Below, in pieces: positions 4,142-34,118 of a DNA stretch of 51,305 nucleotides (position 1 is the stretch's first letter; each line of letters opens with the position of its first letter). The position numbers were made by a program, and so were the translations under genes. This stretch comes from Campylobacterales bacterium (GTDB taxonomy: Bacteria > Campylobacterota > Campylobacteria > Campylobacterales > Sulfurimonadaceae): NCBI GenBank assembly GCA_014859655.1, contig JACUTT010000012.1, forward strand, positions 1-51,305, in the 5' to 3' direction. The notes below the pieces were generated by a model. That model was not told where the DNA came from and did no database searches. It saw nothing but the letters and a program-made list of their open reading frames with translations.

Positions 4142-4900
4142 ATGGACTATTTTGCAAAACGCATCATCCCCTGCCTTGACGTCAAAGACGGGCGTGTTGT
4201 AAAGGGTGTTAATTTTGTCGGGCTCAAAGACGCGGGAGATCCTGTTGAAGTCGCCAAGCGCTACAACGATGAGGGTGCTGACGAGCTGACATTTTTGGAC
4301 ATCACGGCTTCGAGCGACAACCGCGAGACGATTGTCGACATTGTTGCAAAAGTTGCGAAAGAGGTTTTTATTCCCCTGACGGTGGGCGGCGGTATCCGTA
4401 CGCTTGAGGATATCTACAAGCTTCTCAACGTCGGCTGTGACAAGGTCAGTCTCAATTCGGCCGCGATCAAGCGTCCCGAGTTTATCAACGAGGCGGCAAA
4501 ACGTTTTGGCGCGCAGTGCATCGTCGTTGCCATCGATGTTAAAAAAACAGGGGATCACTACAACGTCTATCTCAACGGCGGCCGTGTCGATACGGGCATA
4601 AATGCCCTTGATTGGGCCAAAGAGGCCGTCGAGCGAGGCGCAGGAGAGATCCTTCTGACCTCCATGGACGCGGACGGCACCAAGGCCGGTTTCGATATCT
4701 CCATCACCGAACAGATCAGCTCACTCGTGAACGTCCCCGTCATCGCCAGCGGCGGCGCAGGCACGATGGAGCATATCAAAGAAGCCTTTGAGCACGGGGC
4801 GGACGCCGCACTGGCCGCCTCTATCTTCCACTACAGAGAGATCGACATTATGGATTTGAAACACTATCTACACGACCACAACATCCCGGTAAGGCTCTAG
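4142..4900 (+). CDS. hisF: Imidazole glycerol phosphate synthase cyclase subunit
   Basis: HisF, 252 aa, forms a complex with the glutaminase HisH. It closes the imidazole ring from PRFAR and ammonia, giving imidazole glycerol phosphate for histidine and AICAR for purines. The (beta/alpha)8 barrel is complete, with the two catalytic aspartates at about D13 (CLDVKDG) and D132 (VAIDVKKTG) and the phosphate-binding glycine loops TVGGGIR and ASGGAG. No other his gene is in the window, so histidine genes are dispersed. The next gene starts 1 nt after the stop. Confidence 0.97.
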
Positions 4901-4901
4901 C

Positions 4902-5441
4902 ATGCTTATCTGCGCCGGGAATAACGAGACCTTTGACTTTGCGCTACCTATGGGCGTGGGGATGATAGAGATGGCGATGAACCTGACGCGTCTGTGCCTT
5001 TTTGACAAGCCTGAGTTTTTGCTCTTTATCGGTTCGGCCGGCTCCTACGGAAACCATCAGCTCTTTGACATCGTGGAGTCTAAAACAGCCTCTAACATCG
5101 AGTTAGCTTTTTTGGAAAAAAAGGCCTATACACCCCTTGACAATGTCGTATCAACTAACACCGAAAACAAAAAAGAGATTATCGTCAACAGCTCCAACTA
5201 TATCTCGACAGACTTTGAGCTCTCGCAAGGCTTTCTTAAACTCGGTGTCGGGATAGAGAACATGGAGTTTTTTGCCGTCTTGAAGATCGCTCAGGAGTTT
5301 AATATTCCAGCGGGCGGCGTCTTCTGCATCACCAACTTCACCAATGCAAATGCCCATGCGGACTTTTTGGCCAACCACGAGAAGGCTAAGACTCTGCTGC
5401 ATAAGCATGTGACAAAACGAATCAAAGAGCTTACCTCATGA
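4902..5441 (+). CDS. Nucleoside phosphorylase / nucleosidase-like protein
   Basis: Small protein of 179 aa related to the PNP/MTAN superfamily. Visible family-like elements are the glycine stretch [10 protein letters not shown] near residues 41-50 and IENMEFFAV near 112-120, which resembles the substrate-binding Met-Glu segment of MTA/SAH nucleosidases and purine nucleoside phosphorylases. It is shorter than typical members (about 230 aa), so the substrate is uncertain. It lies between hisF (1-nt gap) and rlmN (4-nt overlap) and is clearly part of that operon. A similar neighbour of rlmN and rsmA occurs in Campylobacter. Confidence 0.75.
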
Positions 5442-6547
5442 AAAAAACAATTCTTGACCTGACCAAAGAAGAGCTCGCACAGAGTATCAAGCCAGCCTTT
5501 CGCGCCAAACAGATCTTCGGCTGGATCTACCACTCTTACGTCAAGAGCTTTGAGCAGATGCAGAACATTCCCAAGGCGATGCGTCAGGAGCTGGACGAAA
5601 AATATAGCCTGATGCCCCTGGAGATCGTCAAAAAAGAGTACAGCGAAGACGGCACGATAAAATATCTCTTTGCTTTGCCTGACGGGAAAACGATCGAAGC
5701 GGTCTTGCTACGCATGAAAGAGGAGGAGAAGGATGAGAACGGCGAACTCACCCAGCAGGCAAAATACACGGTCTGCGTCTCTACCCAGGTCGGCTGCAAG
5801 GTAGGCTGCACCTTCTGTCTGACGGCAAAAGGGGGCTTTACCCGCGATCTTACCCCCGGCGAGATCGTTGCGCAGGTCCTTGCCATCAAGATCGACAACG
5901 ACATTCCCGCAGCCAGACGTATGAATATCGTCTATATGGGGATGGGCGAGCCTTTGGACAACCTTGAGAACCTTGCGACGGCCATCCAGATCTTCAAGGA
6001 CGAGGACGGTCTCGCCATTGGTGCCAAACGCCAGACGGTCTCTACAAGTGGGCTGAGCAGCAAGATCGACAAGCTTGGCCAGATGGATCTGGGCGTGCAT
6101 ATCGCCATCTCATTGCACGCGGTTGACGATGAGCTGAGATCTGAGCTTATCCCGATGAACAAGGCCTACAATATCGCCTCTATCATCGAAGCGGTAAAGC
6201 GTTTTCCGATAGACACGCGTAAACGCGTCATGTTCGAATATCTGGTCATCAAAGATAAAAATGATGACCTTCTCTCGGCCAAAAAGCTTGTCAAGCTTCT
6301 CAGCGGTATCAAGGCGAAGGTCAACCTTATCTTCTTCAACCCCTATCCTGGTAGCCCCTATGAGCGTCCGAGCGTCTCCTCTATGGTGAAGTTTCAGGAG
6401 TACCTGATCAATCACGGACTTCTCTGCACCATCCGCCAGTCGAAGGGGATCGATATCTCCGCCGCCTGCGGACAGCTCAAAGAAAAAGACCAGGACGAGA
6501 TGCGTTTGATCGAAGCAGACAATGCCCCCTATAAGAAAGGACTTTAA
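5438..6547 (+). CDS. rlmN: Dual-specificity 23S rRNA / tRNA adenosine-C2 methyltransferase
   Basis: Radical-SAM methyltransferase of 369 aa that makes 2-methyladenosine at A2503 of 23S rRNA and A37 of some tRNAs. The 4Fe-4S cluster motif is C120-x3-C124-x2-C127 (CKVGCTFC), in a conserved context with C113 before it. The second catalytic cysteine is in AACGQL near residue 344. The start overlaps the preceding stop by 4 nt (ATGA), indicating translational coupling. Length and motifs are typical. Confidence 0.97.
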
Positions 6548-8390: not shown

Positions 8391-10118
8391 ATGGTTCATA
8401 TTGAAACTATGGTTCGTTCCGCTTACCCCGCTTTCTATAACAAGATTCCTTCCATCGTTCTGCGCCCCTCCATAGAGCTTTTAAAAAGGCTTTTTCATGA
8501 GAAAGAGGTCAACAGCTTTTTAGACACGCATTCACGCCTTTATGGCCTTGACTTTGTAGAGGCCGTTTTGGATCACTTGCATATCTCCTACACGGCCAAC
8601 CAGCAGCAGCTTGAAAACATCCCGAGTATCGGCAAGGTGATCGTCGTTGCCAACCATCCCCTGGGTGCCGCCGATGCCTTGACGCTGCTGAAAATGGTCA
8701 GCGACGTGCGCCAGGACAAAAAGATTAAGATCGTCGCTAACCAGATGCTCTCTCACATTCCGCAATTGTCGCAGCTTCTGATCCCTGTGGACAATCTACA
8801 TGGAAAACTAACGCGCAGATCTCTGCAGGCGATCGATGAGGCTCTGGACAACGAAGAGGCGATTATCTTTTTTCCAGCAGGCGAAGTCTCTCGCGCTTCA
8901 TTCAGCGGGGTAAAAGACAGCCATTGGAAAAACGGCTTTGTAAAAATCGCTCAGCGCACCTATACACCGGTGCTTCCTGTTCATATCAGTGCTCGCAACT
9001 CATCCCTGTTTTATGCCTTGTCCTATGTCTATAAACCCTTGAGCGCCTTTTTGCTAGGCCACGAACTGATCCGTTCACGCTCAAGCAAACCCCTGGCCTT
9101 CAAGATAGGCGAGATCATACCGCCTGCCTCTTTTCAAAACCCTTCGCTCAAGGCAAGCCAATATGCGCGTCTGTTCAGAAAACACCTCTATCGCATGGCA
9201 AAAGGCAGAAAAGGCTTCTTGCAAACAGAGCAGTGTATCTCACGTCCGGTCGAACGTCAGCTGCTGCGAAGCGAACTTAAATCTTCTGAGCGGCTCGAAA
9301 CAACGACGGATGGCAAAGAGATCTATCTTGTCGAAGCAGATAACTCCTCAACTGTGATCAAAGAGATTGGGCGTTTGCGTGAGTATACCTTCAGAAAAGT
9401 CGGTGAGGGCACAGGCTCCAAACGCGACATAGATAGATTTGACGAGTATTATATGCATCTGGTTCTATGGGACGACGAGGCTTTGGAGATCGCGGGTGCA
9501 TACCGTATAGGCGACTGCGCATGGATACTCTCCTGGTTGGGAAAAGAGGGTCTTTATATGAACGAACTGTGTACAATGGATGAGGGCCTGGATGCAAGGC
9601 TTGAACATGCCATCGAGTTGGGACGAAGTTTTGTTCAGCCAAAGTACTGGGGTTCACGTGCGCTTGACTACTTATGGCAGGGGATCGGTGCCTATTTGTC
9701 GCACAACCCGCACATCCGATATATGTACGGTCCGGTCTCAATCAGCAACGCCTATCCTAAGGCGGCAAAAGATATTTTGGTCTATTTTTATTCACGCTAT
9801 TTCAAGGATGAGTCACAATCATTTTCGGCAAAGTTTCCCTATCTTCTGTCTAAAAACACACGGAGCGAGTTTGATGAACTCTTCGGGGAGCAGACATACA
9901 ACGAAGCCTTCCGTACCCTAAAATCCTATCTGAAGGGCTTTGAAGTCACTGTTCCGACACTCTATAAACAGTACGGGGAGTTGTGCGAAGAAGGCGGGGT
10001 AAAGTTCTTTGACTTTGGAAGCGACCCTGACTTCAACAATGCCGTCGACGGCTATCTTCTGCTTGATCTTAACCGTCTCAAAGAGGAGAAGCGACGCCGA
10101 TATTTAAACCGGGCCTAG
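8391..10118 (+). CDS. olsF: Bifunctional ornithine-lipid-type acyltransferase (OlsF-like)
   Basis: Fusion of two acyltransferases in 575 aa. The N-terminal half is PlsC/OlsA-like, with NHPLGAAD (residues 88-95, HX5D catalytic motif) and FPAGEVSR (161-168). The C-terminal half, from about residue 310, is an OlsB/GNAT-like domain (REYTFRKVGEGTG). OlsF proteins N-acylate ornithine and then O-acylate the lyso-lipid, giving phosphorus-free ornithine lipids in the membrane. The substrate here is inferred from architecture only. The start is supported by AAAGGA 6 nt upstream. The 3' end overlaps the convergent rluA-type gene by 15 bp. Confidence 0.75.
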   Translation: MVHIETMVRSAYPAFYNKIPSIVLRPSIELLKRLFHEKEVNSFLDTHSRLYGLDFVEAVLDHLHISYTANQQQLENIPSIGKVIVVANHPLGAADALTLLKMVSDVRQDKKIKIVANQMLSHIPQLSQLLIPVDNLHGKLTRRSLQAIDEALDNEEAIIFFPAGEVSRASFSGVKDSHWKNGFVKIAQRTYTPVLPVHISARNSSLFYALSYVYKPLSAFLLGHELIRSRSSKPLAFKIGEIIPPASFQNPSLKASQYARLFRKHLYRMAKGRKGFLQTEQCISRPVERQLLRSELKSSERLETTTDGKEIYLVEADNSSTVIKEIGRLREYTFRKVGEGTGSKRDIDRFDEYYMHLVLWDDEALEIAGAYRIGDCAWILSWLGKEGLYMNELCTMDEGLDARLEHAIELGRSFVQPKYWGSRALDYLWQGIGAYLSHNPHIRYMYGPVSISNAYPKAAKDILVYFYSRYFKDESQSFSAKFPYLLSKNTRSEFDELFGEQTYNEAFRTLKSYLKGFEVTVPTLYKQYGELCEEGGVKFFDFGSDPDFNNAVDGYLLLDLNRLKEEKRRRYLNRA

Positions 10119-11015
10119 CTGGGAGAGCGGGTCGGTCGCGAAGATATCCTTGGAACTTATGCAAAACTCCGGGCCGTAGATGAAAGAGAGCCTGTTGGCA
10201 TGGAGCATCAGCCGGCTCGCCCCGCTCTTCTCTACTCTCTCCTCTTTGCTGATCTCTCTGTCGAGAAACCGCACTACATCCTCTTCGCTCTGGCCGTAGA
10301 TCGGATCACCGACGATGGGATGTTTCACGTGAAACAAATGGACGCGGATCTGATGCTGTCTGCCCGTATGCGGAAAGGCTTCGACAAGGCTCATATCCAG
10401 CTCGGGGTAATAACAGATGCGTTTGAAATTCGTTAGAGATGCCTTCCCCTCTTCATGCACCCGCACCACCATCCTAACGATAGTGCTCTCGTCCTCACGC
10501 CGCAACAGAGGCGCTTCTACGCGCAGCTCGACCGGAAATTTTCCATGTACTAACGCAAGATAACTCTTCTTTATCTCCCGGTTTTCAAACATCATCTTCA
10601 AACGCCGCTCGGATATTTTGTTCTTGGAGATCAGCAGCAGGCCGCTTGTCTCCTGATCGATACGGTGGGTGATATTGGCATCTTTGCCGAAGCTGTGTTT
10701 TGCTTCGTCAATGACAGAATAGGAAGTATGTCTGTTTTGAGGATGAACCAAAACTCCGGTCGGCTTGTCGTAAACGGCAAAGTCCGGGGTATGGAAGATG
10801 GGTTCAAGACCCCTGCTCTCAGGCTCGAAACAGATAAAGGAGAGGCGGCCTTCGGCGTAGCCCGAGGTATGGCTCATCACCTCGCCGTTTACACTTAGAC
10901 GCCCTTTCGCAATGAGGCGTTGCGCCTCTTTTTGGGTATATCCAAGTTCATTTATCAAAAATAGAAATGCCTTTGTTCTCTTCCTCAGCAGATACTCTTT
11001 TTGAACAAACGGCAT
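10104..11015 (-). CDS. RluA-family pseudouridine synthase
   Basis: RNA pseudouridine synthase of 303 aa. An N-terminal S4-like segment (EAQRLIAKGRLSVNGEV, about residues 26-42) precedes the catalytic domain, which carries HRIDQETSG with the catalytic aspartate and HTGRQHQIRVH further on. The family isomerises uridines in 23S rRNA or tRNA; which position is not readable from sequence. A perfect parS site lies inside the gene (10321-10336) and is read as the peptide FHVKH. The gene is divergent from purB and convergent with olsF. Confidence 0.92.
   Translation of the reverse strand: MPFVQKEYLLRKRTKAFLFLINELGYTQKEAQRLIAKGRLSVNGEVMSHTSGYAEGRLSFICFEPESRGLEPIFHTPDFAVYDKPTGVLVHPQNRHTSYSVIDEAKHSFGKDANITHRIDQETSGLLLISKNKISERRLKMMFENREIKKSYLALVHGKFPVELRVEAPLLRREDESTIVRMVVRVHEEGKASLTNFKRICYYPELDMSLVEAFPHTGRQHQIRVHLFHVKHPIVGDPIYGQSEEDVVRFLDREISKEERVEKSGASRLMLHANRLSFIYGPEFCISSKDIFATDPLSQLGPV
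10321..10336. promoter_or_regulatory. parS: parS centromere site 1
   Basis: TGTTTCACGTGAAACA is a perfect 16-bp palindrome matching the bacterial ParB-binding parS consensus at every position. It lies inside the rluA-type coding region. Confidence 0.92.
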
Positions 11016-11084
11016 GCTCTTCCTTTAAAATATAGTTGGCGAATTGTATCAAAACCGGACTGAATAAGATGTTTGGATCGTGGA

Positions 11085-11100
11085 TGTTTCACGTGAAACA
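11085..11100. promoter_or_regulatory. parS: parS centromere site 2
   Basis: A second exact TGTTTCACGTGAAACA, 764 bp from the first, in the divergent region between the rluA-type gene and purB. Two perfect copies make chance very unlikely. Neither parA nor parB is in the window. Confidence 0.93.
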
Positions 11101-11188
11101 TCCTAAATTTCTCATAAAATTTAATCCGTATATTAGTCACTCTTCGATATTATTCTTTTCATTAATTACTCCCACCGAAGGTTATGAA

Positions 11189-12520
11189 ATGGTTGAACGC
11201 TACTCCCGTAAAGAGATGTCTGACAAATGGACGATGCAGGCAAAATATCAGGCTTGGCTTGATGTCGAAAAAGCCGTTGTCAAAGCATGGGCAAAACTTG
11301 GAAAGATACCTCAAGACGATGCCGACAAGATTGTGAAAAATGCAGGATTCAGTATAGAGAGAATAGACGAGATCGAAGCCGTGACACGCCATGACCTTAT
11401 CGCCTTTACGACTTCTGTCTCTGAAACACTCGGCGATGAGAGCCGCTGGTTCCATTACGGAATGACATCTTCCGATACGGTAGATACCGCCGTTGCCCTT
11501 CAGATGAAAGACTCTCTGGCCATCATTATTGAAGATGTCAAGATGATCATGGAGTCGATCAAAAAACGCGCGCTTGAACACAAGATGACGCTGATGGTCG
11601 GACGCTCACACGGTATACACGGAGAACCCATAACCTTCGGGCTTGTCCTGGCCGTTTGGTATGATGAGATGAAACGCCACCTTGAGAACCTTGAGCAGAC
11701 GATGGACGTTATCGCCGTCGGTCAAGTCTCCGGAGCCATGGGCAATTTCGCCCATGCACCTTTGGAACTCGAAGAGATCACCTGTGCAGAGCTGGGGCTG
11801 AAACCTGCACCTGCATCCAATCAGGTCATCCAGCGTGACCGCTATGCACGTCTGGCGACCGCGCTGGCCCTGATGGCGTCGAGTATTGAGAAGTTCGCCG
11901 TTCAGGTACGCCACTGGCAGCGTACCGAAGTCTACGAGTGCGAAGAGTACTTTGCAAAAGGACAAAAGGGCTCATCGGCAATGCCGCACAAGCGCAACCC
12001 TATTCTGACAGAGAACATAACAGGCCTGGCACGCATGGTCCGCTCCTACGCTGTTCCCGCAATGGAAAACGTAGCACTTTGGCACGAACGTGACATCTCA
12101 CACAGTTCAACCGAGCGCTTCTGGCTGCCGGACTCTTTTATCACCTCTGACTTTATGCTCCACCGCATGAACAATGTTATCGCCAACCTCACGGTCTATC
12201 CGAAGAACATGATCCGAAACCTGAACCTCACAGGCGGCCTGGTCTTCTCTCAGCGTGTATTGCTTGAGCTCCCCCTCAAAGGTGTCAGCCGCGAAGATGC
12301 CTACCGCATCGTCCAGCGCAATGCCATGAAGGTCTGGGAAGAGATCCAGCAGGGCAAAAAAACGACAAACGAAGCGGGTGAAAGTCTCTACCTCGAGAAC
12401 CTTTTGGCGGATGAGGAGCTAGGTAACAGCCTCAGCGAAGAAGAGATACGAGAGTGCTTTAATTATGACTACTATACAAAAAATGTAGATAGAATATTTG
12501 AACGAGTTTTCGGAAAATAA
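11189..12520 (+). CDS. purB: Adenylosuccinate lyase
   Basis: PurB, 443 aa from the chosen start, catalyses two beta-eliminations releasing fumarate: SAICAR to AICAR in purine synthesis and adenylosuccinate to AMP. The fumarase/aspartase signature GSSAMPHKRNP is present, with the helical core typical of the family. The open frame extends 51 codons upstream to 11036, but that part covers parS and promoter DNA. The ATG at 11189 (MVERYSRKEMSD) matches the usual family start and has GAAGG 8 nt upstream. Confidence 0.95.
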   Translation: MVERYSRKEMSDKWTMQAKYQAWLDVEKAVVKAWAKLGKIPQDDADKIVKNAGFSIERIDEIEAVTRHDLIAFTTSVSETLGDESRWFHYGMTSSDTVDTAVALQMKDSLAIIIEDVKMIMESIKKRALEHKMTLMVGRSHGIHGEPITFGLVLAVWYDEMKRHLENLEQTMDVIAVGQVSGAMGNFAHAPLELEEITCAELGLKPAPASNQVIQRDRYARLATALALMASSIEKFAVQVRHWQRTEVYECEEYFAKGQKGSSAMPHKRNPILTENITGLARMVRSYAVPAMENVALWHERDISHSSTERFWLPDSFITSDFMLHRMNNVIANLTVYPKNMIRNLNLTGGLVFSQRVLLELPLKGVSREDAYRIVQRNAMKVWEEIQQGKKTTNEAGESLYLENLLADEELGNSLSEEEIRECFNYDYYTKNVDRIFERVFGK

Positions 12521-12597: not shown

Positions 12598-14964
12598 ATG
12601 ATTACAGTTATTAAAAGAAACGGTCGAAGCGAACCGCTAGACATCACAAAGATCCAAAAATACACATCTGCATCTGTCCAGGGTTTGGAGGGCGTCAGCC
12701 AGAGCGAACTTGAAGTGGATGCACAGATCATGTTTCGCGACGGTATCGCTTCCAAGGATATCCAGGAGACGCTGATCAAAACCGCTGTGGACAAGATTGA
12801 TATCGATGCTCCAAACTGGACCTTTGTCGCTTCGCGTCTGTTTCTTTACAATCTTTATCACACCGTAAACCATTTCACGGGCTACTGCAAACTTGACAAA
12901 TATTTTGAGCGCGGAGAGAAAGAGGGACGCATCCTTCGCGGCCTTCGCGAGATGTATGATCTGGATGAGCTTGACGCCTACATCAAGCCCGAACGCGATC
13001 TCCAGTTCAACTACCTCGGCATCAAAACACTCTACGACCGCTACCTGATAAAAGACAGAAACAATGTTCCTATAGAACTTCCTCAGCATATGTTTATGGG
13101 CATTGCAATGTTCCTGGCCCAGCGTGAAGAAAACCGCCAAGAGTGGGCTAAAAAATTCTACGACATGATCTCTACCTTCGAAGTGATGCTGGCGACGCCA
13201 ACGCTCTCAAATGCGCGTACACCACGTCACCAGCTAAGCTCCTGCTATATCGGCTCAACACCGGACAATATCGAAGGGATCTTCGACTCCTACCAGGAGA
13301 TGGCAATGCTCTCCAAGTTCGGCGGAGGCATCGGCTGGGACTGGACGCAGGTCCGCTCTATCGGCTCCTATATCGATGGGCACAAAAATGCCGCCGGCGG
13401 AACGGTTCCTTTTCTAAAGATCACCAACGATATCGCTATCGCTGTCGATCAGCTAGGAACACGCAAAGGCGCCATCGCCGTCTACCTTGAGCCGTGGCAT
13501 CTTGACGTCAATGACTTCCTTGACCTCAAAAAGAACTCGGGCGAAGAGCGCCGCCGTGCGCATGACCTTTTCCCTGCCCTCTGGATCAACGACCTCTTTA
13601 TGAAACGCGTTCAGCAGGATGCGATCTGGACCCTTTTTGATCCCTACCAGACAAAAGAGCTTACCATCTTGCACGGTGACGAGTTTGAAAAGCGTTATAT
13701 TGAGTTAGAGAGTGACGACGATATCATCAAAGAGCGCATTAAGGCCAAGGACCTCTGGAAGAAGATCCTGACCTCCTACTTTGAATCGGGTTCACCTTTC
13801 TTGTGTTTCAAAGACAACGCTAACCGCGCTAACCCGAATGACCATTACGGTGTTATCCGAAGCTCGAACCTCTGTACGGAGATCTTTCAAAACACCAGCC
13901 CGAACACCTACAAGATCAAACTCAAGTTTGAAGACGGCACACACATAAGCTACGAAGAAGATGAGATGGTGCGCGTGGATAGCGGCGTGGAAAAACCGGC
14001 TTCCAAGGTGACCGCTCTTGACTCGATAGGTGGCAGAGAGATCTTTATCGTCGAAAAAGAGAGAGTCAACGGAGACACGGCCGTGTGCAACCTGGCCTCT
14101 GTCAATCTCTCCCGCATCAACACAAAAGAGGACATCGAGCGCATTGTTCCGATCGCTATGCGTGCGCTTGACAATGTTATCGACCTTAACTTCTATCCGG
14201 TCGAGAAGGTCAAACGCACTAACCTCAGAAGCCGCGCTGTCGGTCTGGGCGTTATGGGCGAGGCACAGATGTTAGCGGAGCAGGCCATCGCCTGGGGATC
14301 GCAGGAGCACTTCGACAAGATCGACGAAGTGATGGAGGCGATCTCCTATAACGCCATCTCCGCTTCAAGCGACAACGCCAAGGAGAAGGGCTCTTATCCG
14401 GAATACGAAGGCTCAAAATGGAGCCGTGGCATCATGCCGATGGACCATGCCACCGCAGAAGTGAGAAACCTTGTCGACAGAGGCGGTCTTTTTGCTTCGA
14501 CCTACGACTGGGACGAGCTGCGCACAAAGGTCAAGACGCAGGGAATGCGCAACGGCTACCTGATGGCCGTAGCACCGACCTCGTCGATCTCTATCCTTAC
14601 GGGAACGACACAGACGATCGAGCCGGTCTACAAGCGCAAATGGTTTGAAGAGAACCTCTCAGGACTTATCCCGGTCGTTGTGCCTAGACTCTCCCCTAAG
14701 ACCTGGTCCTACTATACGCCGGCTTATGACCTCGACCAGACGCTTCTGGTCAAAGCTGCCGCCGTCCGCCAGAAGTGGATCGACCAGGGACAGAGCCTCA
14801 ACATTTTTATCTCCTTGGACAAGGCAAGCGGGAAGTACCTGAACGAGATCTATATGCTTGCATGGAAACTGGGTCTCAAGTCGACCTACTACCTAAGAAG
14901 CCAGTCGCCCGAAGCCAAAAACGACGTCGAAGACCGCTCTATGGAATGCGTAGGCTGTCAATAG
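12598..14964 (+). CDS. nrdA: Class Ia ribonucleoside-diphosphate reductase, alpha subunit
   Basis: Large subunit of the aerobic ribonucleotide reductase, 788 aa, reducing NDPs to dNDPs. An N-terminal ATP-cone (residues 1-90) is the dATP/ATP activity switch. Redox cysteines are visible in LSSCYIGS and CNLASVNL, the thiyl-radical cysteine in SNLCTEIF, and the C-terminal pair in MECVGCQ. Compared with E. coli NrdA there is an added stretch of about 40 residues between NLCTEIFQNTS and DTAVCNLAS. The partner nrdB lies 4.3 kb downstream. AAGG lies 9 nt before the ATG. Confidence 0.97.
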   Translation: MITVIKRNGRSEPLDITKIQKYTSASVQGLEGVSQSELEVDAQIMFRDGIASKDIQETLIKTAVDKIDIDAPNWTFVASRLFLYNLYHTVNHFTGYCKLDKYFERGEKEGRILRGLREMYDLDELDAYIKPERDLQFNYLGIKTLYDRYLIKDRNNVPIELPQHMFMGIAMFLAQREENRQEWAKKFYDMISTFEVMLATPTLSNARTPRHQLSSCYIGSTPDNIEGIFDSYQEMAMLSKFGGGIGWDWTQVRSIGSYIDGHKNAAGGTVPFLKITNDIAIAVDQLGTRKGAIAVYLEPWHLDVNDFLDLKKNSGEERRRAHDLFPALWINDLFMKRVQQDAIWTLFDPYQTKELTILHGDEFEKRYIELESDDDIIKERIKAKDLWKKILTSYFESGSPFLCFKDNANRANPNDHYGVIRSSNLCTEIFQNTSPNTYKIKLKFEDGTHISYEEDEMVRVDSGVEKPASKVTALDSIGGREIFIVEKERVNGDTAVCNLASVNLSRINTKEDIERIVPIAMRALDNVIDLNFYPVEKVKRTNLRSRAVGLGVMGEAQMLAEQAIAWGSQEHFDKIDEVMEAISYNAISASSDNAKEKGSYPEYEGSKWSRGIMPMDHATAEVRNLVDRGGLFASTYDWDELRTKVKTQGMRNGYLMAVAPTSSISILTGTTQTIEPVYKRKWFEENLSGLIPVVVPRLSPKTWSYYTPAYDLDQTLLVKAAAVRQKWIDQGQSLNIFISLDKASGKYLNEIYMLAWKLGLKSTYYLRSQSPEAKNDVEDRSMECVGCQ

Positions 14965-32786: not shown

Positions 32787-34118
32787 ATGACAATCGGGCA
32801 ATCTATTTTAAATCTTCTCAAACAGGAGATCAGCGAGATTGAGTATAAACGCTATATCAAACAGCTCACTTTTTGTACAGAAGAGTCCCGAACTGATTAT
32901 GCTCTTTTTTTGGCTCCAAATCCGCTTGTCGCCTCGTGGGTACGGACGAAATACAGTGAAAAAATCGCCCATCTTTTTGAAGTCAAGACCAGCATAAAGC
33001 CGCATATCTCTATTGAGGTTAAAAATAAACGTACTTCCGCAGCGCAAAGTAGTGAACCCTCTGCCTCCGCTTCTCCTCAGCACAATGCCCATCAGAGTCT
33101 TCTTAACCCCGCTTATACTTTTGAAAATTATGTCGTCGGAAGCTCTAACCAGTTTGCCTTCTCTGCCGCACAGTCCATCTGTGAAAAGCCCGGAAGCGCT
33201 TACAATCCTTTTTTTATCTACGGAGGCGTCGGCCTGGGTAAGACCCACCTAATGCAAGCCGTCGGCAACCGACTTCAGGCCCAGGGGAAAAGTGTTATTT
33301 ATTCCTCCGTCGAGCAGTTTGTTAATGATTTTACCCGCCATCTGCGTAACCAGACCATGGACAGGTTTAAAGACAAATACCGCAAATGCGATGTTTTGTT
33401 GATTGATGATATTCAATTTTTATCCGGGAAGAATCAGACCCAGGAGGAGTTTTTTCATACCTTTGAAGCTCTTCGAAATGATAAAAAACAGATCATCCTG
33501 ACGTCAGACAAACAGCCCAAGCAGATCGCCGGGCTGGAAGAGCGCCTGAAAAGCCGCTTCGAGTGGGGTTTGATCGCGGATATTCAGCCGCCTGAACTCG
33601 AGACGAAAATCGCCATCATTAACAAAAAGTGCGAGATCAACCGCGTCAGCATCTCTAAAGAGATCATCGACTACATCGCCACCATCATCGACAACAATGC
33701 GCGCGAGATAGAGGGGATCCTCTCCAAACTTCATGCCTATGCCAAGCTGATGAACCAGGATATCACCCTCGAGTTTACAAAAAATGTTCTTAAAGAGCAG
33801 CTCAAAGAGAGACGCGAAAACATTACTATAGAGTACATTGTCAAATTTGTCTCCAAAGAGCTCAACGTCAAACCCAGTGAAGTCCGCTCTAAAAGCAGAA
33901 GCAAAAACATAGTTTATGCCCGCCGTGTTTCTATCTATCTTGCAAGAGGGCTCACACCAAATTCCATGCCTCAGCTTGCCCAGTACTTCGGGATGAAAGA
34001 CCATACCGCCGTATCGCATACAATGAAAAAGATCAACGAGCTACTTAAAAGCGATGAAAATTTTAAAGTCAAGATCGACGAACTTAATAATAAAATCTCA
34101 GCCGGAGCAGCTCTTTAG
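32787..34118 (+). CDS. dnaA: Chromosomal replication initiator protein DnaA
   Basis: Initiator ATPase of 443 aa. Domain I spans about residues 1-80. A short Ser/Ala-rich linker (domain II) reaches to about 110. The AAA+ domain has Walker A GGVGLGKTH and Walker B LLIDDIQFLSG. The C-terminal helix-turn-helix carries the box-binding signature MKDHTAVSHTMKKI. AAAGG lies 8 nt before the ATG. It is flanked on both sides by DnaA boxes, so it is probably self-regulated. Confidence 0.98.
   Translation: MTIGQSILNLLKQEISEIEYKRYIKQLTFCTEESRTDYALFLAPNPLVASWVRTKYSEKIAHLFEVKTSIKPHISIEVKNKRTSAAQSSEPSASASPQHNAHQSLLNPAYTFENYVVGSSNQFAFSAAQSICEKPGSAYNPFFIYGGVGLGKTHLMQAVGNRLQAQGKSVIYSSVEQFVNDFTRHLRNQTMDRFKDKYRKCDVLLIDDIQFLSGKNQTQEEFFHTFEALRNDKKQIILTSDKQPKQIAGLEERLKSRFEWGLIADIQPPELETKIAIINKKCEINRVSISKEIIDYIATIIDNNAREIEGILSKLHAYAKLMNQDITLEFTKNVLKEQLKERRENITIEYIVKFVSKELNVKPSEVRSKSRSKNIVYARRVSIYLARGLTPNSMPQLAQYFGMKDHTAVSHTMKKINELLKSDENFKVKIDELNNKISAGAAL

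Follow-up and report, generated by a model that had tools for sequence, protein, structure and literature searches.

Putative chromosomal parS sites of Campylobacterales occupy conserved codons of an RluA-family pseudouridine synthase gene

The contig of a Campylobacterales bacterium that constitutes the window of our analysis (JACUTT010000012.1, 51,305 nucleotides) contains two palindromes that very probably serve a ParABS system as its parS centromere on the chromosome of an organism lacking SMC. The first of these sites, located within the gene of an RluA-family pseudouridine synthase, appears to be old and selected at the level of the DNA, and the second, residing in the adjacent intergenic region, appears to be younger. 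This assignment is founded on the comparison of sequences, which speaks for the identity, position, conservation and codon constraint of the sites and for their co-variation and co-absence with ParB. The kind of element is ordinary, its evolutionary fixity is unusual.

Both sites are exact copies of TGTTTCACGTGAAACA, found at positions 10321–10336 (site 1) and 11085–11100 (site 2) and thus 764 bp apart. Site 1 covers codons 227–232 of the RluA-family gene (10104–11015, minus strand), where it is read as NTG.TTT.CAC.GTG.AAA.CAN encoding the peptide L-F-H-V-K-H. The gene was assigned by its match to PF00849 (E 2.9e-29, 102.7 bits at a cut-off of 26.8), which places a PseudoU_synth_2 domain in the protein, and it is also recognized by TIGR00005 with an E-value of 1.7e-51 at a score slightly below the cut-off of that model. 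Pattern searches bore out the two exact occurrences listed in the first-pass annotation and yielded no further match in the window at up to three mismatches (0.12 expected from shuffled sequences). In the whole assembly (2.17 Mb in 85 contigs, 99.6% complete), both copies are the sole matches at up to two mismatches, and the reversed pattern, employed as control at the same tolerance, gives four near-matches. The expectation of less than one copy per genome by chance holds by a large margin, as about 5e-4 exact copies are predicted in 2.17 Mb under uniform composition, and two such copies at a distance of 764 bp are far beyond chance. The pair is found 21.7–22.5 kb from dnaA (32787–34118, plus strand), which marks the origin region, in agreement with the initially noted distance of about 22 kb and with an origin-proximal location. 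In the 25 genomes of relatives that were checked, parS sites are located 4–70 kb from dnaA.

The proposal that these are parS sites near the origin is well supported by a parA-parB operon of the same genome, in residues of its ParB that are typical for the recognition of parS and in the conservation of the sites near dnaA throughout the order. A search of the assembly identified two ParB genes scoring above the family cut-off, and so the absence of parB, which had been named as an observation that would speak against the proposal, is not encountered. One of them is preceded by parA on contig C23 outside of the window (261 and 286 amino acids for ParA and ParB, respectively) and followed by genes of ATP-synthase b-chains (atpF). 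Its product exceeds the cut-off of TIGR00180, and the pair is taken as the chromosomal operon. The other belongs to a second ParA-ParB pair (contig C47, 37906–41427) that adjoins an integrase-like gene and is probably part of a plasmid or an integrated element. The closest protein with a solved parS complex is the ParB of Helicobacter pylori (PDB 4umk, E 6e-70), and the chromosomal protein contains the CTPase motifs GERRLRA and ENIQREEL as defined previously (PMC11229316). It carries arginine and glycine (in the sequences KSR and SAGHA) at the equivalents of R173 and G201, two positions that specify parS binding in ParB and that are occupied by glutamine and arginine in Noc proteins, which bind NBS sequences (PMC7383237). 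Latter distinction bears on the idea that both palindromes would be Noc-type sites involved in nucleoid occlusion, which would be consistent with the match of the protein to TIGR04285 (E 8e-65). We regard this idea as exceedingly improbable, since the score of 218.7 stays below the curated cut-off of 315, the specificity positions are R and G instead of Q and R and the sites are exact parS and not NBS sequences.

On the reading as parS, and by extension from the properties of the ParB family, the ParB encoded on C23 would load at the sites, close as a CTP-dependent clamp, slide onto nearby DNA and engage ParA, which would then move the newly replicated origin. Binding, sliding and a role in segregation are thus what we infer for the sites. 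The system shares the 16-bp parS core, the origin-proximal location and the ParB motifs with the SMC-ParABS systems of Bacillus and Caulobacter but differs from them with respect to SMC, for which no TIGR02168 match at E ≤ 1e-20 was found in any of 42 genomes comprising the assembly of the window and 41 relatives of the order, while the same model matched in 11 of 14 control genomes. ParB-dependent loading of SMC could therefore not belong to the system described here, and the likely task of the sites would be ParA-driven origin movement, making this organism an example of ParABS without SMC. Among characterized systems, the ParABS of H. pylori (HpParA/HpParB) is one of the closest. Its experimentally used parS, TGTTCCACGTGAAACA (PMC11229316), is identical to the variant found at the codons of site 1 in three relatives (G055, G133 and G357), whereas the site in the window has the symmetric core TTTCACGTGAAA and is located in rluA.

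The position of site 1 is shared by much of the order. RluA orthologs of 140 related genomes were selected on protein similarity alone, and the aligned codons were read from the DNA. At the same codons, hereafter called address A, 95 out of 117 genomes contain a parS sequence with up to two mismatches (an exact copy in 63, one mismatch in 28 and two mismatches in 4), a count from which 20 loci picked by DNA pattern (L193–L212) were excluded and which, due to the kinship of the genomes, does not represent independent events. The address is kept down to an RluA identity of about 42%. In a scan of the phylum with a pattern including the codon context, it was detected in 187 of 397 genomes and in 32 of 69 genera, and the reversed control gave zero matches in the same 397 genomes. 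Twenty of the matches, mostly from other families, were inspected and all reside inside rluA. Address A is missing from several families and is thus not indispensable, and the order of its gains and losses is not confidently fixed as the RluA tree contains many open deep forks and has an arbitrary root. With respect to the host gene, we note that its reading frame starts with ATG in the window (11013–11015), yet most orthologs appear to use TTG (57 of 91 carriers). In several genomes of the genus g14 (L057, L060, L061, L076, L077, L078 and L085), rluA is found as tandem duplicate with parS in both copies, so that the centromere was doubled along with the gene.

A conserved peptide in a conserved enzyme could by itself preserve the underlying DNA, and the parS-like sequence might then be a by-product of a requirement of the RluA-family protein for FHVKH. 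Such requirement would be in line with the near invariance of the peptide in carriers and with its location next to the motif HQIRVH...GDP of the catalytic domain. Conservation of the protein would, however, leave synonymous positions free. When conditioned on the peptide LFHVKH, the pooled codon usage of the same rluA genes predicts an exact parS in 0.84% and a sequence with up to one mismatch in 10% of cases, compared to 61 of 76 and 76 of 76 genomes observed. Valine is encoded by GTG in 85 of 85 and lysine by AAA in 88 of 88 carriers, and five of the six codons with strongest synonymous conservation in rluA are within or touching the site (the remaining one is the start codon), although these counts are partly circular as carriers were defined by the site. 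Orthologs devoid of parS at this place mostly follow the pattern xxIGH (HSIGH, YSIGH, NHIGH, NHINH and similar), with glycine in most of them at the position of the lysine in carriers, and the same columns read QYAGH in RluC and REANH in 11wx, with FHVKH being absent from these solved relatives. Moreover, 10 of the 11 two-mismatch forms are full palindromes, represented by the double variants TGTTCCACGTGGAACA, which replaces lysine by glutamate, and TGTTTCATATGAAACA. The exchange of lysine for glutamate is only encountered together with the half-site TGGAACA, which, in reverse reading, corresponds to one half of the parS of H. pylori. As far as codons are concerned, the explanation as by-product is largely refuted by these comparisons, and we consider it very unlikely. 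Our data instead lend strong support to the claim of the first-pass annotation that parS dictates the sequence FHVKH, for which it had suggested the examination of codons in related genes. Site 1 would accordingly represent an old centromere address that was fixed at the same codons of RluA-family genes, where selection for ParB binding apparently operates at the DNA level, prevails over the freedom of synonymous codons and forces the sequence F-H-V/M-K/E-H onto an enzyme that otherwise mostly contains xxIGH. It would provide a clear natural example in which a DNA-binding site overrules the choice of codons and the sequence preference of the protein itself.

A second address is found in an unrelated gene. 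Since one frame of parS contains a stop codon (TGT.TTC.ACG.TGA), coding DNA can hold the site only as [L/M]FHVKH or as xVSRET. In many families (f2, f4, f6, f7, f10, f11, f13, f14, f16, f18, f19, f20, f22 and, as judged by coordinates, f17), the other stop-free frame, encoding VSRET, is used to accommodate parS in a nucleosidase-like gene (PNP_UDP_1, related to MTAN and futalosine hydrolase) between hisF and rlmN, termed address B. In the family of the window, it is present as two-mismatch form in a single genus (G021). The equivalent gene in the window (4902–5441, plus strand), which is flanked by hisF (4142–4900) and rlmN (5438–6547) on the same strand, contains no parS at this address, and the site has probably been lost here. 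In 16 of the 19 genomes containing both addresses, the core variants of A and B are identical, compared to a mean of 6.5 in shuffles, with the genomes being related and thus not independent. Examples include the core CATATG in both addresses of G046 and the asymmetric core TTCCACGTGAAA in both addresses of G055 and G133. Such matched variants are what a single shared reader would cause. We consider it probable that two addresses were fixed early in Campylobacterales in unrelated genes and in the two stop-free frames, that selection on the DNA has maintained them and has shaped the encoded enzymes during much of the history of the order, and that ParB and its sites have changed together. A third place within genes is located around codon 159 of RluA, where the site encodes VSRET (VSHET in one case) in five genera. 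We also observed exact parS sequences in genomes without either address (L005 and L006), located in a sugar-phosphate isomerase-like gene (family f9) and in a panB-like gene (family f3), with the labels of both genes assigned by eye from their translations.

The overlap of a centromere site with coding sequence has a precedent, as the parS of Bacillus lies within spo0J. The present case differs from this example in that many families retain the site at identical codons, with a measurable override of codon choice and protein sequence. We found no report of a fixed parS address within a gene in the literature searched, whose coverage was partial, with the parS survey of Livny et al., 2007 lying outside of it. 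A review lists the evolutionary reasons for the placement and clustering of parS sites among the open questions (PMC7333895). As two fixed addresses can be followed through many families with regard to where they occur, where they are missing and how they change in step, the placement of parS becomes accessible to comparative tests.

Co-absence of the sites and ParB was also observed. Five genomes from three families (G040, G056, G059, G121 and G134) are without a full chromosomal ParB, and in these we found no parS at up to one mismatch and none in RluA where it was scored. The sites, which elsewhere are under selection, are thus missing where ParB is missing (Fisher p 1.5e-4, uncorrected for kinship and calculated from lists drawn up by hand). 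There are exceptions in both directions. In G050 (f15), ParB is present without a site at up to two mismatches, and G127 (f11) and G129 (f15) contain ParB but only non-palindromic candidates with two mismatches. At address B, family f15 has VAHET or VAHQT in place of VSHET. An altered specificity of ParB is possible in these three genomes. In G016, sites are present and ParB was not found in a genome that is 65% complete.

Finally, site 2 differs from address A in its restricted distribution. It is located in the divergent intergenic region between rluA, which starts at 11015, and purB (11189–12520, plus strand), which encodes adenylosuccinate lyase as identified by PF00206 and PF10397 and is followed by nrdA (12598–14964, plus strand), coding for the large chain of ribonucleotide reductase. 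The alignment of starts defines ATG at 11189 as the true start of purB and rejects the TTG at 11036 from the list of open reading frames as spurious. In the rluA-purB gap, the site is found only in the genus of the window (G000 and G002–G005); in G001, the contig breaks at this gap and a site with one mismatch is found at the end of another contig. Within the genus, its distance to purB amounts to 88, 90, 113, 167 and 194 bp, and in other genera the companion lies in the nucleosidase gene, in rluA or immediately behind the latter.

These features are relevant for a view of both sites as operators that would allow ParB or a different factor to regulate rluA, purB and nrdA, with segregation being secondary. 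Its intergenic location and the overlap with a weak promoter-like match would favor such role of site 2. However, two promoter-like matches were found where 1.1 are expected by chance, the spacing to purB is variable, the second site of other genera is found within or behind rluA or in a different gene and the addresses within genes are far from gene starts. We thus regard a primarily regulatory function as very unlikely. Control of purB by site 2, rejected on account of its variable spacing, is unsupported. By analogy, ParB would be expected to spread over purB and nrdA; the suggested influence on the expression of both genes finds no support, in light of the genus-specific occurrence of the site and its variable distance. 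The variable and genus-specific placement instead points to a turnover of helper sites and argues against a fixed role in a promoter. Within the interpretation as parS, site 2 would be the younger, genus-specific intergenic companion of site 1.

Site 2 is embedded in a palindrome of 22 bp (11082–11103). Intergenic parS sequences (L028, L025, L043 and L044) are often part of such extended palindromes, which measure 32 bp in G004 and 24 bp in G002 and have arms that vary from species to species. Most of the long intergenic palindromes show no clear T-run and are therefore not obvious terminators. The flanks of intergenic sites pair at 5.5–6.4 of 12 positions, compared to 1.7–2.0 for sites within genes.
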